Shown: positions 1,431 to 33,239 of the stretch, piece after piece
How the letters are laid out: every line of letters begins with the position of its first letter
Numbering within the stretch: the stretch's first letter is position 1
Assembly (NCBI GenBank): GCA_014055495.1
Contig: WIAG01000038.1
Location: 1 to 34,577 of the forward strand
DNA length: 34,577 bases
Direction of reading: 5' to 3'
DNA from: Nitrospira sp. CR1.2
GTDB lineage: Bacteria > Nitrospirota > Nitrospiria > Nitrospirales > Nitrospiraceae
Notes under the pieces: model-generated
The model's database searches: none
The model's input: the letters and a program-made list of their open reading frames with translations, nothing else
Told to the model about the DNA's origin: nothing
Translations under genes and position numbers: made by a program

Positions 1431-1526
1431 TTTCTTTACACATTCCTACTAACGGAGGGCTCGGCCGGAACGCAGGATCGAGCGGACGACAGAGAGCGGC
1501 AGCCGGAACAGGACGACCGGCGCCGA

Positions 1527-7448: not shown

Positions 7449-7928
7449 TTACTTAATCATGATCAACTGACCACCGGGCTGCTTCGGGTTCAACTGATCC
7501 CGATAGCTCAGGGTGTTGCCTTGCGTGGCGTTGAACAGGTCGCTGGTCGGAATGCCGATGTACTTGGTCTCGCCGGGCTTGAGGACGACTTCCGCCTTCA
7601 GCACGAACGGAGAGGCCGCGTTGACCGGGTCCGTCATCTGGAACCCGCGATCCGTGGAGGTGTTGTTCGTCACCTTCAGCAAGACCGGCCGGCCGGGACG
7701 AATTTTGAAGTCGATCACGGTGGTCGGTGGGTACCAGGCCTTCAAGCCCCCCACTTCGACCGCGAACAATTGCGCATCTACTTCCAATTCCTTGAACGGT
7801 TGGCCGACCACCGAACCGGTCGCGAGGTCTCCCACTTCGACCCCGCCGGCCTGCAAGGCCCAGGCTCCGGTGGCACTCGACAACAGACTCAACGCACCGA
7901 GAAATAACACTGCACTCCTGCTCAACAT
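7449..7928 (-). CDS. Secreted cupredoxin-like beta-sandwich protein without copper ligands
   Basis: 159 residues with a signal peptide (MLSRSAVLFLGALSLLSSATGAWA|LQ). The mature protein has strands of cupredoxin type (VIDFKIRPGRPVLLKVTNNTSTDRG, then VVLKPGETKYIGIP) but no Cys and none of the Cys-His pattern that binds copper. It is therefore either a structural relative or a metal-independent partner. ATG at 7928 has AGGAGGT 5 bases upstream. It lies 19 bases after the gene 7947-8291 and should share its transcript, which starts from a copy of the tandem-repeat promoter at 8316-8379. The family assignment is by fold pattern only and is tentative. Confidence 0.65.
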   Translation of the reverse strand: MLSRSAVLFLGALSLLSSATGAWALQAGGVEVGDLATGSVVGQPFKELEVDAQLFAVEVGGLKAWYPPTTVIDFKIRPGRPVLLKVTNNTSTDRGFQMTDPVNAASPFVLKAEVVLKPGETKYIGIPTSDLFNATQGNTLSYRDQLNPKQPGGQLIMIK

Positions 7929-7946: not shown

Positions 7947-8291
7947 TTAAAGGGATGAGGACGAACGATGCTCCGGCGCCAGGCACGGAGGAAGACCAGT
8001 GCCTTCCAGCACCTGACCGCCGACAATGTGACCATCCATGATGAGAAATAACACTTTCATCCGCTTGGTATTCTCCGAAAATTTGCCGCTAGCCACCGCC
8101 AGCACTTCATGCGACCCGTCCGGCTGAGGATGATCGGCTTCGATCATCACGTAGTACGAATCGAATCCCTCAAATTCCCGATTGAACGCCTGCGCCCGCA
8201 ATAATCGCTCGAGCGTGTCGTCCGCCGCCCACCCCGTCGTACCATCGGCCAGCACCAGTACGTACAACAGGGCGATGAAGAGTTTTCGCAT
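7947..8291 (-). CDS. Small secreted protein of unknown function
   Basis: 114 residues with a signal peptide (MRKLFIALLYVLVLADGTTGWA|ADD). The mature part has FEGFDSYYVMIEADHPQPDG and a strand-rich middle (HEVLAVASGKF, RMKVLFLIMDGHIVGGQVL). One Cys lies near the end (LPPCLAPEH) and the C terminus is a run of serines. I do not recognise the family. ATG at 8291 has GGGAGGT about 5 bases upstream. It is the first gene after promoter copy 1, the only copy with three 10-bp repeats, and is followed 19 bases later by the cupredoxin-like gene, so the two probably act together in the periplasm. Confidence 0.7.
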   Translation of the reverse strand: MRKLFIALLYVLVLADGTTGWAADDTLERLLRAQAFNREFEGFDSYYVMIEADHPQPDGSHEVLAVASGKFSENTKRMKVLFLIMDGHIVGGQVLEGTGLPPCLAPEHRSSSSL

Positions 8292-8315: not shown

Positions 8316-8379
8316 GTTATAGCCCCGGCAAGCCCGGCCGTCTACAGACGCCCGCTCATGGATGCCAACGGATGCTACA
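8316..8379 (-). promoter_or_regulatory. Tandem-repeat regulon promoter, copy 1 (three repeats)
   Basis: Minus strand: TGT, then 10-bp units AGCATCCGTT, GGCATCCATG and AGCGGGCGTC, two bases, -35 TAGACG (8339-8344), 17 bases, -10 TATAAC (8316-8321). The predicted transcription start is about 18 bases before the ATG at 8291. The operator spans 41 bp, exactly 10 more than the other six copies. Confidence 0.75.
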
Positions 8380-10791: not shown

Positions 10792-10874
10792 CCCCGAAGG
10801 GCCGGGGTGAAGGGGGAGGCCATCCCATTCACCCCGGGGAGGCAGATCCTGAAGAAGGGTGCACAACCCCAGGA
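10792..10874. repeat. 83-bp intergenic repeat, copy 1
   Basis: Near-identical to 11495-11577, with a few substitutions by eye. The core forms a hairpin: CCGGGGTGAA (10802-10811) pairs with TTCACCCCGG (10828-10837), with a further GGGA/TCCC pair inside. A second short hairpin, GGGT-GCACA-ACCC, lies near the end. Together with copy 2 it brackets the P460 gene. Confidence 0.85.
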
Positions 10875-11494: not shown

Positions 11495-11577
11495 CCCCGA
11501 AGGGCCGGGGTGACGAGGGAGGCCATCCCGTTCACCCCGGAGAGGCAGATCCTGAAGAAGGGTGCACAACCCCAGGA
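11495..11577. repeat. 83-bp intergenic repeat, copy 2
   Basis: Second copy of the repeat at 10792-10874, in the same orientation, about 700 bp away. Its stem is CCGGGGTGA with TCACCCCGG; the changed bases next to the stem still leave the inner GGGA/TCCC pair intact. It lies just upstream of the P460 ribosome site. Confidence 0.85.
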
Positions 11578-11592
11578 CCCGTCACTTTCTCC

Positions 11593-11838
11593 TTACCGCT
11601 TGAGCGATCGACGCCTAGTCAGCGGCACGATTTTCAACTGCGGCACGGACTCCGTCGGACGCGGATCCGTCCGACTCCCCTCGACCAGCGCCATCACGGA
11701 GGAACGAAAGATGCGCAGACTGCCGCCGCCGATTTTGGTGGCATCCAGCCGCCCTTCGTCGACCCAGCGATAGATCGTCCACTTGCTCACTTGCAGCATG
11801 TGGGCGGCTTCCTTGACCCGCAAGAGCGGCTGATCCAT
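11593..11838 (-). CDS. Small excisionase-type helix-turn-helix DNA-binding protein
   Basis: 81 residues from the ATG at 11838, with GGAAGG about 7 bases upstream. The first 60 residues are a winged HTH of the MerR/excisionase (HTH_17) type: LLRVKEAAHMLQVSKWTIYRWVDEGRLDATKIGG, then a short wing (SLRIFRSSVMALVE). The C-terminal 25 residues are basic and disordered (VPLTRRRSLKR). Members are either phage or plasmid excisionases or small regulators. No integrase, att site or phage gene is nearby, so a regulator is more likely. It is the only plain transcription factor in the window, but nothing in the sequence links it to the tandem-repeat promoters. Confidence 0.8.
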   Translation of the reverse strand: MDQPLLRVKEAAHMLQVSKWTIYRWVDEGRLDATKIGGGSLRIFRSSVMALVEGSRTDPRPTESVPQLKIVPLTRRRSLKR

Positions 11839-12209: not shown

Positions 12210-12542
12210 CTATCCCCTCGCGGAGACCGGCGGTGCACGGGTGTGAAGAGACGAGTGATCCTGAACGGCAATGAGCAGAGGAGCGGAAGGGAGAGAAGAC
12301 AGCTGCGTAACCCAGGAGATCCCGTTATCCGCATGCGCCACCGGGCCGACATCTGATGAAGCTTGGCAGGCCCACGAACAGAGCGTGGAATGGGAGTCCG
12401 TCCCGGAATGCTGGTGGTGATCGCCTGACGGTGCCGCATGGGCAAAGGAACAGCCCGGCGCGACGAGCGCCAAGGTCAGATAGACCAAGACCACGCCAAG
12501 GGTGACGAGGACAGCTGATGTTTTGGTGGATAATCGATTCAT
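12210..12542 (-). CDS. Small His/Cys-rich secreted protein, regulon member with RAPP tail
   Basis: 110 residues. A signal or TM segment (VLVTLGVVLVYLTLALVAPGC, ending near FAHA) is followed by a His-rich stretch (GDHHQHSGTDSHS) and CSWACQ. A second hydrophobic part (LSSLPSAPLLIAV) precedes HSSLHTRAPPVSARG. The WAC motif and the R-A-P-P tail are shared with other small proteins in this window (22904-23302, 27781-28191 and, for the tail, 16469-16807). The pattern resembles DUF2946-like small proteins found beside metal-uptake genes, but I cannot confirm the family. Many His and Cys suggest metal binding. It is transcribed from promoter copy 2, whose predicted start lies about 18 bases before the ATG, and seems to stand alone. 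Confidence 0.65.
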   Translation of the reverse strand: MNRLSTKTSAVLVTLGVVLVYLTLALVAPGCSFAHAAPSGDHHQHSGTDSHSTLCSWACQASSDVGPVAHADNGISWVTQLSSLPSAPLLIAVQDHSSLHTRAPPVSARG

Positions 12543-12567: not shown

Positions 12568-12621
12568 CATCTACGCGCTTTCACAAAACTTGTCTACCGA
12601 CGGATACTCACGGATGCTACA
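12568..12621 (-). promoter_or_regulatory. Tandem-repeat regulon promoter, copy 2
   Basis: Minus strand: TGT, AGCATCCGTG, AGTATCCGTC, GG, -35 TAGACA (12591-12596), 17 bases, -10 TAGATG (12568-12573). Operator plus -35 is 31 bp. Predicted start about 18 bases before the ATG at 12542. Confidence 0.75.
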
Positions 12622-12643: not shown

Positions 12644-13954
12644 TCATACAGATGGCCCTCTCGCCCCCGCGACGACGGGCGAGCCGGTGCGCCGTGCCTG
12701 TGCCGTGATCCTGGATCGACGTTTCTTCCACCAGAGATAGGTGCCGGTTACCGAGAGCTGGACGATGATCAATCCCAGCAGGCACACAAACATTCGATAG
12801 GGAAGCCCGAACACATTGGCCATGTGCAGGGCATACAGCCAATTGCTGAGGGTGTTGCCGGTATATTGGCCCGCGGGCAGCAACGCCGATTTCAATGCCC
12901 CGCTGTCCGCGTCGAAAAACACCTGGGTTGTATAGCGGCGGGGTCTATCGTCGAGTTCACGGTCGGTCTCAACCTGATACTGATAGAGGCCGAATTCACG
13001 ATACAGTCGTAGCGCCACCGGCCGGCGCAGCGTCAGTCCCGCCTGCGCAACGTGCACCGCCATCAACCGCTCCCCGACCGTTTGCGCGTCCAACCAACTC
13101 AACTCCGGCCGCTCCATCGGAACCGGCCGTGATTGAAACTCTGTCCAATACGGGCGATAGTCGAAGAACGCCCGCGTGGTCCAGGTATACACCGTATCCC
13201 AGAGATTCATATAGACGCTCGACCAGGCGAAGAGCAGCAGCGCCGCCCACAGCCACAAACCGCTCGCCCGGTGCAGGTCGAAATTCAGCCGATAGGAGCT
13301 GGTGGGCCACTTGATCATCCATGCCGGCTTCCAGCGCTCCCACCAACTCGCCTGAGGCACTCGCTCTGGCCCATTTGCCTGGCCGGTACTGGAACGGCCG
13401 GCAGGAAGGGGAAGGGTCAGATAGAAACCGACGAAACAATCCAGGGTCCAGACAAACGCACAGATCCCCAGAATCCACACGCCCGGCATGTCCAACGCCA
13501 AGGAGTAGTGCAGCGCATAGACAAATGACATGAGGCCGGTCCACCCGTTCCGAAGTGAGCCCCATTGAATCCGGTCCAGCACCGTTCCCCTCGCCGGGTC
13601 CAGCACGACATAGTCGTACCCCAGGTGGAATGGCATCCCGGTGGCCGGATCAAGACGAGGCTCTACCCAGGCAGACGTCGCGCCGTCGAAGCCTTGCAAC
13701 GACACCTGAGTGACTCGCAGTCGTGGCTCGGCCCTCTCCAGCTTCTCTGCCAACAGGCCGGCGCCCATCCACGTGGCGGGGTTGCGGTCCGGATACCAGT
13801 GCGGATGGGCGAGGCGCTCCAGCTCGGGATAAAACGCCAGCAGACTTCCGGTTAGCCCGACCACGATCAAGAACCCCGCCATCGTCAGGCCGGCCCAGCG
13901 ATGCAGGCGGACCCAGAACGGTCTCCCACTCCGCCATGTACGTTGTGTCGACAT
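12644..13954 (-). CDS. PepSY-associated TM protein (siderophore/heme reductase-like)
   Basis: 436 residues from the ATG at 13954, with AGGAGGTG 6 bases upstream. It is a PepSY_TM protein: TM1 near residues 15-40 (RLHRWAGLTMAGFLIVVGLTGS), a large periplasmic PepSY part (LRVTQVSLQGFDGA), two or three central TM helices, and a last TM segment (MFVCLLGLIIVQLSVTGTYLWW) before a basic end (KKRRSR). Conserved histidines lie in or next to the helices: LHRW, YALHYSLALD, FDLHRASGLW and YALHMANVFG. In related proteins beside siderophore receptors such histidines bind heme and the protein reduces ferric iron at the inner membrane. It follows the TonB receptor gene by 68 bases and belongs to the unit started by promoter copy 3. 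Confidence 0.87.
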   Translation of the reverse strand: MSTQRTWRSGRPFWVRLHRWAGLTMAGFLIVVGLTGSLLAFYPELERLAHPHWYPDRNPATWMGAGLLAEKLERAEPRLRVTQVSLQGFDGATSAWVEPRLDPATGMPFHLGYDYVVLDPARGTVLDRIQWGSLRNGWTGLMSFVYALHYSLALDMPGVWILGICAFVWTLDCFVGFYLTLPLPAGRSSTGQANGPERVPQASWWERWKPAWMIKWPTSSYRLNFDLHRASGLWLWAALLLFAWSSVYMNLWDTVYTWTTRAFFDYRPYWTEFQSRPVPMERPELSWLDAQTVGERLMAVHVAQAGLTLRRPVALRLYREFGLYQYQVETDRELDDRPRRYTTQVFFDADSGALKSALLPAGQYTGNTLSNWLYALHMANVFGLPYRMFVCLLGLIIVQLSVTGTYLWWKKRRSRITAQARRTGSPVVAGARGPSV

Positions 13955-14022
13955 TCCGCCCACCTCCTGAGTCCACACATCAGGCGCCGCCCTGCTCGGT
14001 CCACGGCAGTGCCGGGTCTCCG

Positions 14023-16374
14023 TCACATCTCGATGCGAAGCGATCCCAGGAATGTCAACGGCAGGCCCGGTTGAATGACGAGCCGGGAGTTGCCGCGGTC
14101 GTAATAGTCCGTATTGAGCAAGTTGTACACATTCAGCTGGGCCGTCATTTTTGAGCCGGAATACGTGAAGGTGTATCCGGCGCTCGCATCCCATCGGACA
14201 TATCCCGGCAACTCCACCGTATTATCCAGATCCGCCATCCGGTTGGACCGTGCGAAAGCCCCGGTTCCCAGACGGACACCCTGCAAGATCCCATCCGTGA
14301 ATTCGTAGACCGCCCAGAGGCTTCCGGAATGAGCAGGAACTGAAATGAGCCGGTACCCTTCGATGCCGCTCAGGTCCTTCGTAACTTTCGCGTCGGTGTA
14401 GGCGTAACTGGCGATGACGTTGAGTTGGTCGGTGAGACGGCCGGACACATCGAATTCCACGCCACGACTGTTGGCCTCCCCGATTGTCCGGCTGAACGGC
14501 GTGCCCGGAATCACCGTCGCCACGTTCTCCTTGGTCAGGTCGAAGAACGCCAACGTGGAGTTGACGGTGCCGCCCCAAAATTCGGTTTTGATGCCGGCTT
14601 CCCACTGTCTGGCGGTTTGCGGATCGAGCGAGCCGCTGCCCGGTAACGGCGTGCCGCTATTGTTGCTTCCCAAGGATTTGACATAGTTCCCATAGAGAGA
14701 CAGCCACTGCCAGGGTCGGTACACAATGCCCAGGCGCGGGCTGAAGTATCCGGTGCGCTCGTTGGTTTCACCGGCATGCGCCAAAGCCAGTGAGGTGTCG
14801 GAGAAACTGGTTCCGACCTCGGCCCAGTCATAGCGACCGCCGCCGAGAATATGCACCTTGTCCCACAGGGTGATCTGATCCTGGAAATACAGGCCGTACC
14901 ACTGCTCGGGAAACGTGCCGAATTGATTGTAGGTGGCACGGGTAATCGAGGAGAGGTCGATCCCGTACGTCGGGTTGAAGATATTGAGGGACGGTACGAC
15001 AGGGGTTTGTCCGGCAAAGGCACTATAGACGCCTTCAAATCGATAATAGTCCACTCCGACGAGCAGATCGTGCTTGAGGGGTCCCGTCCTGACATGCCCG
15101 ACCAGATCTAGATTGGCGGCATAGGTTCTGCGGTTCAGATCGGCATGCCACAACCCCCGGGTCAGCTCGCCCGTGCTCTGGTCGAAATCTACGGCAAAGA
15201 GCGTCCGTTGATCGTAGGCGACATCGTTGAACTGAAACCGGTTGATGATCTTCCAATCGGGGGTGAATCGGTAGGTCCAATCGAGTCCCACCAATACACG
15301 TCGTTGCGTATTCTTGGCGGCCGGATCGCCGGTGAACCGGCTCAACGGAATGGGGGCGGGACGATTGCCGATGGCAGGAATGCCGACATCGCTGACATCC
15401 GTGAACGTATTGCGTTGGTATTCAATGTCGAGGTTGCTTTCAAATCGACTATTGGGTCGCCACGTCAGGGAGGGAGCGAAAAAGATGCTGTGCTGCGTCA
15501 CCAAATCCTGAAACGTATTGTTGTTTTTGTACGCCAGATTGACCCGATAGAGCAGCGTACGATCCGCAAGGAGCGGCCCTGTGGCATCAATCGTCGTCCG
15601 GTAAAAATTGTACGAACCGAATTGCTGCTGGAGCGAATAGTACGGGACATCCAGCGGCCGTTTCGTCGCCAGATTGACCAGACCGCCGGGCTCGGTACGG
15701 CCGTAGAGAACGGAGGCGGGACCTTTCAAGACCTCGATCACGTCCAGATTCGCGGTTTCCAATGCGGTGGTGGCTTGATGGCGAAGCCCGTTGCGATAGG
15801 TGCTGGCGTTGGCTTCGAAGCCTCGTAGAATGAAATTATCGTAAAAGGTATATCCGCCCGGCTGGACTCCGCTGACATTCTTCAAGGCATCGCCCACGGA
15901 TATGACTTGCTGATCGTCCATCACGGCGCGCGGCACGACCTGAATGGATACCGGCGTCTCCATGATCGGCTGATCGCTCTTCGTGGCGGTCGCGGCCCGC
16001 TCGACGGCGTAGGACTCTCGCTGCGCCGTGACAAATACCGGCTTGGCCTCGACCACCGGAGCGGCCTCCTCTCTCTCTGCGGAGCGAGCCGGTCGGCGCA
16101 CATCAGGAACCGCAAGCGGCAGCGGCGGCACAATCGCCAAGGGCCGCTCCTCCGATGGCGGTGCCGGCGCCTCTCCCGCCTCTCCGGCCTGCTGAATGGA
16201 CGGCGCCGGTTGCCCGGACGAGTCCTCCGCCTGTCGGGAAGCCTGTGGCGGGAGCTGCGGCCCCGCGCAAGCGGCCATGATGAGACTCGCCAGGAGGGCG
16301 AAGCCCGCGATCGAACTCAATGGGGGAACGAATGAAGACGATGACGGACGAAACTGAATCGTGACGGAAACCAT
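14023..16374 (-). CDS. TonB-dependent siderophore-type receptor with lipoprotein signal
   Basis: 783 residues from the ATG at 16374 (GAGGAG about 10 bases upstream). The signal ends in ASLIMAAC, so Cys36 may be lipidated, which is unusual for a TonB receptor. A Pro/Gln/Glu-rich linker of about 80 residues leads to the TonB-box region (VVEAKPVFVTAQRE). The plug domain has TPVSIQVVPRAVMDDQQ and LKNVSGVQPGG, the siderophore-receptor signature, and VLKGPASVLYGRTEPGG. A long beta-barrel follows and ends LGSLRIEM. The ligand is not identifiable. It has a paralogue at 25224-27566. It is the second gene of the unit from promoter copy 3, after the small protein 16469-16807 and before a PepSY gene, a classic arrangement for siderophore uptake with reduction. 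Confidence 0.9.
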   Translation of the reverse strand: MVSVTIQFRPSSSSFVPPLSSIAGFALLASLIMAACAGPQLPPQASRQAEDSSGQPAPSIQQAGEAGEAPAPPSEERPLAIVPPLPLAVPDVRRPARSAEREEAAPVVEAKPVFVTAQRESYAVERAATATKSDQPIMETPVSIQVVPRAVMDDQQVISVGDALKNVSGVQPGGYTFYDNFILRGFEANASTYRNGLRHQATTALETANLDVIEVLKGPASVLYGRTEPGGLVNLATKRPLDVPYYSLQQQFGSYNFYRTTIDATGPLLADRTLLYRVNLAYKNNNTFQDLVTQHSIFFAPSLTWRPNSRFESNLDIEYQRNTFTDVSDVGIPAIGNRPAPIPLSRFTGDPAAKNTQRRVLVGLDWTYRFTPDWKIINRFQFNDVAYDQRTLFAVDFDQSTGELTRGLWHADLNRRTYAANLDLVGHVRTGPLKHDLLVGVDYYRFEGVYSAFAGQTPVVPSLNIFNPTYGIDLSSITRATYNQFGTFPEQWYGLYFQDQITLWDKVHILGGGRYDWAEVGTSFSDTSLALAHAGETNERTGYFSPRLGIVYRPWQWLSLYGNYVKSLGSNNSGTPLPGSGSLDPQTARQWEAGIKTEFWGGTVNSTLAFFDLTKENVATVIPGTPFSRTIGEANSRGVEFDVSGRLTDQLNVIASYAYTDAKVTKDLSGIEGYRLISVPAHSGSLWAVYEFTDGILQGVRLGTGAFARSNRMADLDNTVELPGYVRWDASAGYTFTYSGSKMTAQLNVYNLLNTDYYDRGNSRLVIQPGLPLTFLGSLRIEM

Positions 16375-16393
16375 GATGGTGATGCTCCTCGTT

Positions 16394-16425
16394 AAAAAGC
16401 TGACGATCGTCCGTGCGAGCACGGA
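16394..16425 (-). promoter_or_regulatory. Hairpin and U-run ahead of the TonB receptor gene
   Basis: On the minus strand TCCGTGC and GCACGGA (16410-16425) form a hairpin, followed after 11 bases by TTTTT (16394-16398) and then the ribosome site of the TonB receptor. The spacing is too long for a standard terminator. It could act as a weak attenuator between the small gene and the receptor. Confidence 0.3.
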
Positions 16426-16468: not shown

Positions 16469-16807
16469 TTACGCGACGATCAGCGTAGGAGGAGCGCGGA
16501 GACTGTGGATGGTTGCGAGGAAGTCTGCGGAGGGAGGTTCACGCGCCTGATCATCAGGCAACCTCGCCAGGAACGGCACGCAAGGCTCTAGCTCATCATG
16601 AAGGATTGCGGCGCAGGGGGAGGCTTGCGGAGGATCTATGAGCGAGACCGGATATGAGCAGATCTCGTCGCAATGCTCCCCTTCGGCGGCATAGTGCTCG
16701 GCGAGATCGACCGGACTCCAGAGCGGCGGCAACCCCAGCCACCACCAGACCGGCAGGAAGAGAAGCAGGACGACGGAGACTTTCCAGGATCTATTAAGGC
16801 GAGACAT
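16469..16807 (-). CDS. Small Cys/His membrane or secreted protein with RAPP tail
   Basis: 112 residues. One N-terminal hydrophobic segment (VSVVLLLFLPVWWWLGLPPLW) acts as signal or anchor. The rest carries EHYAAEGEHCDEICSYP and later Cys residues (ASPCAAIL, LEPCVPF), suggesting metal binding, and ends HSLRAPPTLIVA. The R-A-P-P tail is shared with the small proteins at 12210, 22904 and 27781, although this one lacks their WAC motif and is the most diverged. AGGAG lies 9 bases before the ATG at 16807. It is the first gene after promoter copy 3 and is followed by a TonB receptor and a PepSY gene. I do not recognise a named family. Confidence 0.6.
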   Translation of the reverse strand: MSRLNRSWKVSVVLLLFLPVWWWLGLPPLWSPVDLAEHYAAEGEHCDEICSYPVSLIDPPQASPCAAILHDELEPCVPFLARLPDDQAREPPSADFLATIHSLRAPPTLIVA

Positions 16808-16827: not shown

Positions 16828-16881
16828 CTTATAGCAGACGCTCCGCGGGCTGCCTACGGATGGGTGCTCACAGATGCTACA
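16828..16881 (-). promoter_or_regulatory. Tandem-repeat regulon promoter, copy 3
   Basis: Minus strand: TGT, AGCATCTGTG, AGCACCCATC, CG, -35 TAGGCA (16851-16856), 17 bases, -10 TATAAG (16828-16833). Operator plus -35 is 31 bp. Predicted start just upstream of the AGGAG of the gene starting at 16807. Confidence 0.75.
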
Positions 16882-22903: not shown

Positions 22904-23302
22904 TCAGGAGAGCACAACGGGAGGACCGCGGCCGTGGGCCGCAATTTCAAACAGGGTGCGATAAGACATCAGCAGCAGCACCAGCAGGACAAATGCAGAG
23001 ACCACGAGAGGGAGGCGTGGAACCTCCGGAAGGATGAATGCCGTTTCATCCTGCGTGACCGTACAGGCCCAGGTCGTCAGGGGACTCGCTTCCGCCTGGC
23101 CGTGGTGGCAAGGATCGCGATCCCCCCCGGCATGGAGATGGAAGCTCCGTGAGGTCGGCTGTTCGAAATCAACGAAGCAGGTGTGGCAGACAAACCCCGC
23201 GACCACCCGGATCACGACTAAGAGGCAGGCGACGACCACCGCCGCACGAGGCATCAGGCTGGATCGCCGATGTTGTGAGAGAGAACCCTGCTGCATCGTC
23301 AT
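22904..23302 (-). CDS. Small Cys/His membrane protein, WAC/RGPP family (paralogue 1)
   Basis: 132 residues from the ATG at 23302 (ATGs at 23296 and 23254 also possible). TM1 (AAVVVACLLVVIRVVAGFVC) leads to CHTCF, then a His-rich outside part with FHLHAGGDRDPCHHG and TTWACTV, then FILPEVPRLP and TM2 (LVVSAFVLLVLLLMSYRTLF), ending AAHGRGPPVVLS. It is clearly homologous to 27781-28191: shared VCxxCF, FxLHxGxDRDxCHHG, WAC, FxLPExPxLP and GRGPP. The four Cys and several His should form a metal or disulfide site on the periplasmic side. It is the first gene after promoter copy 4 and heads a six-gene unit (PepSY, adaptor, ATPase, two permeases). I know no name for it; DUF2946-like is a guess. Confidence 0.72.
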   Translation of the reverse strand: MTMQQGSLSQHRRSSLMPRAAVVVACLLVVIRVVAGFVCHTCFVDFEQPTSRSFHLHAGGDRDPCHHGQAEASPLTTWACTVTQDETAFILPEVPRLPLVVSAFVLLVLLLMSYRTLFEIAAHGRGPPVVLS

Positions 23303-23332: not shown

Positions 23333-23387
23333 ACCATACGCAACCAGCCGTTCCCTTGTCCAGCAACAGGTGCTCACGGATGCTACA
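23333..23387 (-). promoter_or_regulatory. Tandem-repeat regulon promoter, copy 4
   Basis: Minus strand: TGT, AGCATCCGTG, AGCACCTGTT, GC, -35 TGGACA (23357-23362), 18 bases, -10 TATGGT (23333-23338). Operator plus -35 is 31 bp. Predicted start about 23 bases before the ATG at 23302, which supports that start choice. Confidence 0.75.
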
Positions 23388-25223: not shown

Positions 25224-27566
25224 CTAAAACTCCATCTTCAGGGATCCCAGGAAGAAACGTGGCGTTCCGATGTCGATCCGACCCCGGCCGAAGCCTGCGC
25301 TGCTCGGGAAGTACTCCTGGCCCAGCAGATTGTCCACATTCACTTGCGCAGTGAGCCGCGTGGCCCCGACATGCATCGTATAACTGGCCATCAGATTGAC
25401 CAGCACATACCCCGGCATCTGGTAGTCGTTCTCCCGATTCCCTTGCCGCTCTCCCCTGGCCACCAGCCCGGCCCCTACTTTCCATCCCTGGAGACGCGGC
25501 TCCTGGAACCGGTACGTCGTCCATAGACTGCCCGCATGTTTGGGGACATTCGGAAAGCGATTGCCGATCGTACCGTCGTTCATCTGGGTGATTTCCGAAT
25601 CGGTATACGCGTAGGTCGCAATCACATCCAACCCCGGGAGCACTTCTCCGGCCACGTCCAGTTCGACGCCATTGTTGCGCGCTTCGCCCGTTTGCACGGA
25701 GAACCCCAAGGCGGCGAGCACCGGATCGGGATGGCCCGTGGCCACATTCTGCTTGGTCAGTTCAAACCAGGACAGGGTCGCCGTCCACCGGCCATCGAAG
25801 AGCTCGGTCTTGATACCGGCCTCCCACTGCTGGGACGTTTCCGCTCTCAGCGGCGCCCCTGTCACACCCAGCGATCCGATATTCGGCACACCGAAGCCTT
25901 CGACATAGTTGCCGTACAAGGCGAGTTCCTTGATCGGTTGCCAGAGCAGGCCTACGCGTGGCGTGACGGCAGACTGCCGGCTACTCGATACGGTCCGCGT
26001 CCCGCCGAACGTATTGTCGGTCGTAATCTCCGCGCTGTCGTACCGCAGGCCCGCCAACAGATGCAGGTGAAACGGCAATTCCACCTGATCCTGCAGATAG
26101 AGCCCGAACCATTTCTCGCGGAGATCGAACGCAAAATCGTCCGCCGGATCCGCAATAGAATTCCCACTATGGACCGGGTTGAAGATATTGATGGAGGGAA
26201 TCGCGAAGTTGTCGACCATGGTGCCGGTATTCTTGAACTGGTAATAGTCCGTTCCCACCAAGAGCCGATGGTTGAGCCCGAAGGTGTCGAAGCGCCCGGT
26301 CAAGTCGAGGCTGGTCGTATAGGTCTTGTGTTTGTTGCCTTGGAATCCGGCGAAAAAACGATCCAAGGTTTCGTTGTCCGCTTGCAGGGCCAGCGGCAAC
26401 ACCACCTGATCATCTTCCTTCGTCGATTGCAGATAGGCCCGGTGCTGAATCTTCCACTGGCTATTGAACTCATGCGACCAATTGAATCCGCCGAGCAGGG
26501 CCGTATAGTTCGCCTTGGCGAACGACTCGCCCAGGTTACGCTCGATCGGCAGAGAAGCCGGCCTGGTGCCGAGGGCCACCGTGCCATAGTCAGGACGCAC
26601 GTTGCCTTTGCTGTATTCCCCGTCGAACGTGATCTGTGTCCGCTCGCTCAATTTCCATTGCACCACCGGCGCAACGAACAACTTCTTGTCGTCGACGAAC
26701 TCCCGGAACGACCCTTTACTTTCATAGGACATATTGAACCGATAGAGCAGCGACCCCGACTCGTTGAGTTTGCTCGTCGCATCCAAAGCCGTGCGGTAGA
26801 AATCGTACGACCCGACCTGCTGTTGAATCGAGTAGTAGGATTGCTCAAGCGGCTTCTTCGTGACGAGATTGATCATCCCGCCCGGTTGAATCCGGCCATA
26901 GAGAATCGACGCCGGGCCCTTCAGGACCTCGATCCGCTCCAGGTTCGCCATTTCCCTCCTGCCGGTTTGCGTCAAGGCCGACTGAAACCGAGTCCCTTCC
27001 CGATAATAGTCGAACGTTTCGAATCCCCGAATCGTAAAGGACTCGAAGAGACTGAGCGATTGATTGGCAAACACACCGCTGACGTTGTTCAGCGCATGGT
27101 CCAGACGCGTCGTCTGTTGATCCTTCAACACCTGCTGCGGCACCACCTGGATGGAAAACGGCGTCTCCATGATCGGCGTATCGGTTTTGGTGGCCGTGAC
27201 GGCGTTCGTCATGTGATAAGACTCGGCCTGCGCCACCACATACACGGGTTTCACGTCGACCACCGGCGTGTCGGCCTTCTCCTCGCTGCTGACTCGGTCG
27301 ACCGCAGCAACCGGCGGGACCGGCGGCGGCACGCCGACCGCGACGGGCGGCTCTGATGGTGCCGGTTCGGTGGTTTGCTGAACTTCGGCTGGTTCGGAGG
27401 GCTGGACCTCCGCCGCCTGGCGAGGCTGTGTCGGTACCGGTTTATGCGGCCCGATGCAGCCCGCGAACACAATGAGACAGATGACTGCACCTGTGGTCAG
27501 GCTGACGCCCGACCACACACTTCGAACGTGATCCTCGGCACTTTGATCGCATACGACTGACTTCAT
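25224..27566 (-). CDS. TonB-dependent siderophore-type receptor with lipoprotein signal (paralogue)
   Basis: 780 residues from the ATG at 27566, with GGAGGGGAG about 8 bases upstream. The signal ends CLIVFAGC, a good lipobox with Cys37, followed by a Pro/Glu/Gln-rich linker of about 75 residues and a TonB-box region (VDVKPVYVVAQAE). The plug domain has TPFSIQVVPQQVLKDQQ, LNNVSGVFANQ and VLKGPASILYGRIQPGGMI. The barrel ends FFLGSLKMEF with the usual terminal Phe. It resembles 14023-16374 in all these features. It is the second gene after promoter copy 5, behind a small Cys/His protein. A perfect 30-bp palindrome (27582-27611) sits directly upstream of its ribosome site. No PepSY gene follows it. 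Confidence 0.9.
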   Translation of the reverse strand: MKSVVCDQSAEDHVRSVWSGVSLTTGAVICLIVFAGCIGPHKPVPTQPRQAAEVQPSEPAEVQQTTEPAPSEPPVAVGVPPPVPPVAAVDRVSSEEKADTPVVDVKPVYVVAQAESYHMTNAVTATKTDTPIMETPFSIQVVPQQVLKDQQTTRLDHALNNVSGVFANQSLSLFESFTIRGFETFDYYREGTRFQSALTQTGRREMANLERIEVLKGPASILYGRIQPGGMINLVTKKPLEQSYYSIQQQVGSYDFYRTALDATSKLNESGSLLYRFNMSYESKGSFREFVDDKKLFVAPVVQWKLSERTQITFDGEYSKGNVRPDYGTVALGTRPASLPIERNLGESFAKANYTALLGGFNWSHEFNSQWKIQHRAYLQSTKEDDQVVLPLALQADNETLDRFFAGFQGNKHKTYTTSLDLTGRFDTFGLNHRLLVGTDYYQFKNTGTMVDNFAIPSINIFNPVHSGNSIADPADDFAFDLREKWFGLYLQDQVELPFHLHLLAGLRYDSAEITTDNTFGGTRTVSSSRQSAVTPRVGLLWQPIKELALYGNYVEGFGVPNIGSLGVTGAPLRAETSQQWEAGIKTELFDGRWTATLSWFELTKQNVATGHPDPVLAALGFSVQTGEARNNGVELDVAGEVLPGLDVIATYAYTDSEITQMNDGTIGNRFPNVPKHAGSLWTTYRFQEPRLQGWKVGAGLVARGERQGNRENDYQMPGYVLVNLMASYTMHVGATRLTAQVNVDNLLGQEYFPSSAGFGRGRIDIGTPRFFLGSLKMEF

Positions 27567-27581
27567 GACAAGACTCCCCTC

Positions 27582-27611
27582 CTGGCTAGTCCGGCATGCC
27601 GGACTAGCCAG
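27582..27611. repeat. Perfect 30-bp palindrome abutting the receptor's ribosome site
   Basis: CTGGCTAGTCCGGCA followed by its exact reverse complement, with no spacer. On the minus strand its last bases run straight into the Shine-Dalgarno sequence of the TonB receptor (start 27566). It may be an RNA hairpin affecting translation or stability, or a DNA operator. Confidence 0.85.
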
Positions 27612-27697
27612 AACTCCCCATAACGCCGGTGGAACGGTGCCCAGCCCGAGGCACAGCCTGTGAAAACAGGGCGGCGGTCCGAGATCAGACCGAGCCC

Positions 27698-27719
27698 ACT
27701 CGCGTGGGACCACGCGAGT
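27698..27719 (-). terminator. Hairpin between small gene and TonB receptor
   Basis: ACTCGCGTG (27698-27706) pairs with CACGCGAGT (27711-27719) around a GGAC loop. It lies about 60 bases after the stop of the gene at 27781-28191. No T tract; it could be a partial terminator. Confidence 0.4.
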
Positions 27720-27780
27720 TCCACGACACAGACCTTGCCAAGGCTTCAACCGCCAGCGGCTGATGTTTTGTTGTGCGGAA

Positions 27781-28191
27781 TTACGAGACGAACGAAACGG
27801 CGCTGAAGGGAGGGCCGCGGCCATTGGCCGCGACCGGCGCGAGACTGCGGTAGCTGAGCCACACGAGCACGAGGGGTACGAAGAAGGAGACCAACACCGG
27901 CAGGTGCGGGATCTCCGGAAGGACAAACGCCGGATCATCTTCATTGACCGAACAGGCCCAGATGATCCACGGACTGACCGGAGCCAGGCCATGGTGGCAT
28001 CGATCGCGATCCCACCCGCTATGAAGATAAAACGCTCTGGTCTTCGCCGGTTCCCAATCGCTGAAACAGGTCGAACAGACAATGCCTGCCGCGACGCGGA
28101 TGGCAATGAGCAGACAGGCAAGCAGCGCAACCAGCCGAGGGGTCCGGCCGGATCGATCGGTCGCATGCATGGCGCGAAGAAAATCGTTCAC
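27781..28191 (-). CDS. Small Cys/His membrane protein, WAC/RGPP family (paralogue 2)
   Basis: 136 residues from a GTG at 28191 (AGGAA 6 bases upstream; predicted transcript start 21 bases upstream); an ATG at 28170 is the alternative. TM1 (LVALLACLLIAIRVAAGIVC) leads to CSTCF, then FYLHSGWDRDRCHHG and IIWACSV, then FVLPEIPHLP, TM2 (VLVSFFVPLVLVWLSYRSL) and a tail ANGRGPPFSAVSFVS. Homologous along its whole length to 22904-23302. The outside loop of Cys and His residues should bind a metal or heme or form disulfides. It heads the unit from promoter copy 5, followed by a TonB receptor 214 bases away with two hairpins in between. No known function. Confidence 0.72.
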   Translation of the reverse strand: MNDFLRAMHATDRSGRTPRLVALLACLLIAIRVAAGIVCSTCFSDWEPAKTRAFYLHSGWDRDRCHHGLAPVSPWIIWACSVNEDDPAFVLPEIPHLPVLVSFFVPLVLVWLSYRSLAPVAANGRGPPFSAVSFVS

Positions 28192-28219: not shown

Positions 28220-28274
28220 AGGCTACGACACTGCGTAGGACATGGTCTACAGATGCCTGCTCACGGATGCTACA
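28220..28274 (-). promoter_or_regulatory. Tandem-repeat regulon promoter, copy 5
   Basis: Minus strand: TGT, AGCATCCGTG, AGCAGGCATC, TG, -35 TAGACC (28244-28249), 18 bases, -10 TAGCCT (28220-28225). Operator plus -35 is 31 bp. Predicted start about 21 bases before the GTG at 28191. Confidence 0.72.
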
Positions 28275-31721: not shown

Positions 31722-31775
31722 ACTCTAACAAAGCTTCCTGCGGGGCGCTACCGACGTATGCCTACCGATGCAACA
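31722..31775 (-). promoter_or_regulatory. Tandem-repeat regulon promoter, copy 6
   Basis: Minus strand: TGT, TGCATCGGTA, GGCATACGTC, GG, -35 TAGCGC (31745-31750), 17 bases, -10 TAGAGT (31722-31727). This is the most diverged copy, yet spacing is unchanged at 31 bp. Predicted start about 38 bases before the ATG at 31676. Confidence 0.62.
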
Positions 31776-31840
31776 GATGTGACAGAATGACGTCACCGGG
31801 GAGAACGGACGGGAAAGGACGAGACCATTCAGAGGCGTCA

Positions 31841-33184: not shown

Positions 33185-33239
33185 ATGCTACGTGGGACCA
33201 TTCCGCACTGTCTACCGACGGGTGCTCATCGTTGCTACA
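33185..33239 (-). promoter_or_regulatory. Tandem-repeat regulon promoter, copy 7
   Basis: Minus strand: TGT, AGCAACGATG, AGCACCCGTC, GG, -35 TAGACA (33209-33214), 18 bases, -10 TAGCAT (33185-33190). Operator plus -35 is 31 bp. Predicted start about 34 bases before the ATG at 33143. Confidence 0.72.

Follow-up and report, generated by a model that had tools for sequence, protein, structure and literature searches.

Nitrospira are major nitrite oxidisers, and some of them are complete nitrifiers. In the literature searched, we found no description of how TonB-dependent metal uptake is controlled in these bacteria. The 34,577-nt stretch of DNA analysed here (the window), which is one complete contig of a 4.06-Mb Nitrospira genome, carries a gene cluster encoding TonB receptors, ExbB/ExbD, PepSY_TM proteins, a MacB-type ABC system and small secreted proteins. 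Seven minus-strand promoters in this cluster have phased direct-repeat operators, six with three units and one with four.

Operator arrays and their step size

The seven operators in the window are as follows.

8340..8379, minus strand: copy 1, four-unit operator (one unit over the -35 and three upstream of it), from the sequence and orthologous sites
12592..12621, minus strand: copy 2, three-unit operator, followed by a RAPP leader ORF and by the gene of the candidate regulator
16852..16881, minus strand: copy 3, three-unit operator
23358..23387, minus strand: copy 4, three-unit operator
28245..28274, minus strand: copy 5, three-unit operator
31746..31775, minus strand: copy 6, three-unit operator
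33210..33239, minus strand: copy 7, three-unit operator

On the minus strand, copies 2–7 are arrays of the type TGTAGCATCC GTGAGCAYCC GTCGGTAGAC, the last unit of which overlaps the -35, while copy 1 reads TGTAGCATCC GTTGGCATCC ATGAGCGGGC GTCTGTAGAC. The last unit holds GTAGAC at the sigma-70 -35 position, 17–18 nt before a TA-containing -10. In an alignment with copy 5, copy 1 carries an insert of exactly 10 nt (TGGCATCCAT), and the sequences on either side of it stay in register; the spacer to the -10 is the same despite the extra unit, with 18 nt between GTAGAC and TATAAC in copy 1. The alignment bears out the original prediction that copy 1 exceeds the other six by exactly one 10-bp repeat that preserves both phase and promoter distance; the count of two and three repeats given there needs correction, as the unit over the -35 brings the operators to three and four. 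A sequence-only model of copies 2–7, with copy 1 left out, still finds copy 1, insertion included, at E=0.023 genome-wide, and its strong sites are confined to the metal-uptake cluster, both in this genome and in other Nitrospira. A random in-phase 10-mer would match the unit RTNNGYANNC with p ~9e-4. Upstream of copy 6 (31775–31784, minus strand), a TGTCACATC stretch precedes the first unit by 9 bp and is kept in G004 and G015; it may be a further weak unit.

To define the step size across Nitrospira and its relatives, promoters were anchored on the -35 and -10 alone (n=140), and the distance of a perfect TGTWGCA upstream of the -35 was scored. The motif lies at 24 nt in 49 cases and at 34 nt in 14, with one off-step case each at 23, 32 and 33 nt; matches at 47 nt (two) and 71 nt (one) come from a site counted again from a later GTAGA. 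Because TGTWGCA falls at 24 or 34 nt when ~1.2 chance matches are expected over all positions, the arrays are not chance repeats, which upholds the earlier claim that the units are real. A PWM scan gave 48 versus 8 for the two spacings. Additionally, self-identity at a lag of 10 is 0.49 for three-unit and 0.48 for four-unit arrays, other lags giving 0.14–0.36, and the unit consensus across genomes is RT-NN-GYA-NN-C. The search of other genomes for versions with different repeat numbers, as had been proposed, returned three- and four-unit forms, the latter also at promoters other than that of copy 1 (G008, L210, L211 and L214), and no two-unit or five-unit form was seen among the anchored promoters. 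From this sequence comparison, the operator system is judged to be real, conserved and quantised by whole units. Two exceptions look real: the unit spacing at a G206 site (L215, minus strand, 17229) is 9 bp, and a 33-nt site in G178 (L214:6109) heads an operon containing a copy-1 orthologue. A 20-nt partial match in several genomes (G023:C1:230004 and others) was rejected as an operator, as by eye it precedes an apparent tRNA gene.

The position of the arrays could also suggest that the repeats form part of extended promoters for an ECF/FecI-like alternative sigma factor and are not an operator. In favour of this, the array is most constant on its GTAGAC side, and in one related genome a weak site is followed by a FecI-like gene. 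Against this, ECF promoters are not known to have phased repeats 25–35 nt upstream of the -35; here the -10 is also variable and sigma-70-like. We regard this explanation as highly improbable. The weak site in question, which has a perfect TGTAGCA and a TATAAT, is located at ~12774 of L203 (G084:C5:45000-64999), in a related family, and heads a FecI-like sigma/FecR/TonB receptor set; no counterpart of this FecI-like gene was noticed in Nitrospira. More broadly, Fur-like, ECF-sigma and response-regulator candidates were set aside, as no gene of these classes recurs in the cluster.

The four-unit operator and its orthologues

Copy 1 heads an operon of two genes for secreted proteins.

7947..8291, minus strand: first gene of the copy 1 operon, encoding a 114-aa secreted protein of no known family with a conserved LPPC near its C-terminus
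7449..7928, minus strand: second gene of the copy 1 operon, encoding a 159-aa secreted protein judged cupredoxin-like only by eye

The 159-aa protein has no Pfam match. The 114-aa protein is present in 64 of 175 Nitrospiraceae genomes, and its relatives in named records are nearly all from Nitrospira. Directly upstream of copy 1 lies a gene for a small metal-binding protein (SMBP, Pfam PF16785; 8487–8843, minus strand), with two cytochrome P460-type genes further upstream.

The sites beside the copy-1 gene in these genomes lie at 34 nt in 43 cases, spread over nine genera, and at 24 nt in three; in the other 18 the site is unrecognisable or moved. The expectation that orthologous sites should differ in 10-bp steps was thereby sustained, with no recognisable site at any other distance. 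On a protein tree of the copy-1 product, made from a short alignment and rooted at the midpoint, the three-unit orthologues (g9, g19 and g20) form one supported clade, and the four-unit ones fall elsewhere. Because the three-unit cases share this single clade, the four-unit state at the copy-1 gene is probably old, and one unit was probably lost in the g9/g19/g20 lineage. Together, the 43 four-unit orthologues and the confinement of the three-unit ones to one clade indicate that the four-unit form is an ancient, gene-specific and conserved trait, one that is neither a recent duplication nor peculiar to the window's genome.

It could be argued that repeat number has no regulatory meaning, three and four units being equivalent and the extra unit a neutral slip. 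The three-unit versions of the copy-1 promoter in one clade fit this proposal, as do the four-unit versions at some other promoters. A neutral slip is harder to reconcile with 43 orthologues in nine genera that retain four units with conserved unit cores while the neighbouring promoters remain three-unit, and we therefore consider it unlikely. The natural three- and four-unit promoters, together with a clade that has lost a unit, make the tuning of a head-to-tail regulator by repeat number directly testable.

A candidate regulator of the operators

The candidate regulator encoded in the window is an element new to this analysis, and it is assigned from its sequence and predicted fold.

11593..11838, minus strand: candidate regulator, 81-aa HTH_17/excisionase-family protein, BldC- and Xis-like winged helix, from profile, PDB and fold matches

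The protein, whose sequence starts MDQPLLRVKEAAHMLQVSKWTIYRWVDEGRLDATKIGGGSLRIFR, is small and MerR-like, without coiled-coil and effector domains. It matches TIGR01764 (excisionase) and HTH_17 (PF12728) with 49.6 bits against a cut-off of 28.8 and 51.5 bits against one of 27, whereas with the BldC subfamily model NF033787 (HTH_BldC) it scores 30.2 bits, below the cut-off of 77. A phmmer search of the PDB ranks two BldC–DNA complexes first. A Foldseek search with an AlphaFold model made from seven sequences returns phage Xis (4j2n) and BldC (6ama/6amk) as top matches, the predicted fold reaching a TM of up to 0.90 over the target for the BldC structures. The profile of the protein is 36% identical to BldC over 50 columns; the BldC sequence used for this comparison agrees with the chain aligned from the PDB. 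All 12 Nitrospira sequences compared have R24 and W25, which align to BldC Arg30 and Trp31, both of which contact DNA (PMC5859096).

Streptomyces BldC (PMC5859096; PDB 6AMA, 6AMK) is likewise a small MerR-like winged helix that has no dimerisation domain, carries the conserved Arg/Trp of the recognition helix, and binds direct repeats of variable number as a head-to-tail multimer with 9 bp per protomer. The excisionases of the HTH_17 group, such as phage Xis (4J2N) and RdfS (8DGL, PMC11963761), belong to the same Pfam/TIGR family and form head-to-tail filaments on DNA, and the 81-aa protein is predicted to share their fold. Since BldC places one subunit per direct repeat, homology supports one subunit per 10-bp unit here. 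There are also differences. The BldC repeats are 9 bp (AATT-NNNN-C) and AT-containing, whereas the units here are 10 bp (RT-NN-GYA-NN-C) and GC-rich; BldC targets concern development, not metal uptake, and the arrays here end on the -35. Unlike the excisionases, the 81-aa protein is linked to no integrase or mobile element, and the sites are chromosomal promoters of uptake operons.

Gene order and co-occurrence also point to this protein. Among the 35 regulator-type genes read, an operator is located within 2.2 kb upstream of 22; all 22 of these operators are three-unit, at a distance of 0.66–1.9 kb, and each is separated from the gene by an ORF ending R[AG]PP. The remaining genes are mainly of a second paralogue type (MNKQLL...), present in many clusters and with no operator upstream, so that the arrays may be bound by either type. 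Within the genus, the 81-aa protein is absent only from G006, G011 and G016, which are those in which the operator is missing or represented by a single weak match; joint absence of the protein and of good operators in three genomes would arise by chance once in 3654. At the order level, G074, G081 and G084 have both. Furthermore, G071, chosen by the protein alone, has beside the gene a 24-nt operator, missed by the operator model, with an RGPP ORF behind it. As protein and sites share one cluster, their co-loss is partly a matter of linkage. In G006, which lacks the cluster, a degenerate operator (TGGAGCATCCATGAGCATCGGTCGGCCAGAC) still stands at the expected place (L112, G006:C1:2433000-2436000, ~1480–1504, minus strand) and is apparently a remnant.

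OmpR/PhoB-type regulators bind tandem direct repeats of 10–11 bp that overlap the -35. A response regulator of this type encoded elsewhere could accordingly occupy the arrays, leaving the HTH protein with some other role, and the repeat period and position would fit it equally well; direct-repeat binding by response regulators is described in PMC5859096. However, the operators differ in being strictly 10-bp with three or four units, we noticed no response regulator containing a DNA-binding domain in the clusters that were read, and it is the BldC-like gene that recurs there and is present or absent together with the sites. From these clusters, we consider a response regulator an unlikely ligand.

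We therefore favour, as fairly probable, the explanation that the seven sites serve as the operators of a single local regulon, that of the TonB/ExbBD/PepSY_TM metal-acquisition cluster, with the 81-aa protein as the most likely ligand and one subunit on each unit. The points that weigh against this assignment are the differing length and composition of the BldC repeats, the score below the BldC subfamily cut-off, the two sites that break the 10-bp rule (G206 and G178), the second paralogue type, and the linkage component of the co-loss.

Leader ORFs and a proposed circuit

Four of the seven operons in the window begin with a leader ORF.

12210..12542, minus strand: leader ORF of the copy 2 operon, 110 aa, ends RAPPVSARG
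16469..16807, minus strand: leader ORF of the copy 3 operon, 112 aa, ends RAPPTLIVA
22904..23302, minus strand: leader ORF of the copy 4 operon, ~132 aa, ends RGPPVVLS
27781..28191, minus strand: leader ORF of the copy 5 operon, 136 aa, ends RGPPFSAVSFVS

These ORFs are small, exported, Cys-rich and Cys/His-containing, and they end in RAPP (copies 2 and 3) or RGPP (copies 4 and 5); across genomes, R[AG]PP leaders follow 40 of 84 operators. Behind the copy 3 leader are a TonB receptor (14023–16422) and PepSY_TM (12644–14194), and behind the copy 4 leader are PepSY_TM, HlyD, ABC and two FtsX/MacB genes. The copy 5 leader overlaps the start of a long TonB receptor ORF (25224–28166). The copy-1 operon has no RAPP/RGPP leader.

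The arrangement resembles the cruR-crtA-PepSY_TM operons of Bordetella, in which an exported Cys-rich leader ending RAPP/RGPP precedes a TonB receptor and PepSY_TM, and in which B. pertussis CruR stalls on RAPP without copper, allowing TonB/PepSY_TM expression (PMC9426467; PMC12914433). Arrest of this type has been demonstrated in vitro (PMC12992588). In the Nitrospira leaders, a CxxxC lies 42 (copy 2) and 53 (copy 3) residues, and a CxxC 82 residues (copies 4 and 5), before RAPP/RGPP, compared with 45 in CruR, and the leaders in the window match no Pfam family, DUF2946 included, at E up to 5. Because of this and the mostly different Cys–RAPP spacing, they are CruR-like in kind and not members of the family. 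Unlike in Bordetella, one leader precedes a transcription-factor gene, and a shared transcriptional operator is present on top. Given the CruR-like leaders, the metal handled by the cluster is most likely copper; two receptors score as siderophore receptors above the cut-off, so that iron is possible instead.

From the units, their phase, the fixed promoter end, conservation, gene order, co-occurrence and protein family, all of them sequence-based, we infer binding, stoichiometry, cooperativity, regulatory sign, copper response and autoregulation as follows. Subunits of the 81-aa protein would line up head to tail on 10-bp units with neighbours touching, three at most promoters and four at copy 1, the promoter-proximal subunit covering the weak sigma-70-type -35 (GTAGAC) and the array extending upstream by whole units. 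In four operons, including the regulator's own, the leaders would permit synthesis of the regulator and the transporters only when copper is scarce, by analogy with Bordetella CruR. Activation of weak promoters is the likelier sign, since with such leaders the regulator would be made when copper is low, and since the promoters appear weak; the protein probably autoregulates its copy 2 operon. The extra unit of copy 1 would give a longer, tighter filament on a leaderless operon that depends on the operator alone. As a tentative extension that we hold possible but doubtful, the whole could form a two-layer copper circuit in which a RAPP leader controls a BldC-like factor that polymerises on 10-bp arrays and repeat number sets the promoter response, the leader-free operon having the longest array. 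If the regulator assignment is true, BldC-like direct-repeat control would extend into Nitrospirota, coupled to arrest-peptide sensing.

The window also contains an 83-nt element twice (10792–10874 and 11495–11577), with 95% identity between the copies and strong folding potential (z -2.5 and -1.6). An Rfam search of the whole window, this element included, gave no match, and translated fragments hint at similar copies in other Nitrospira clusters.
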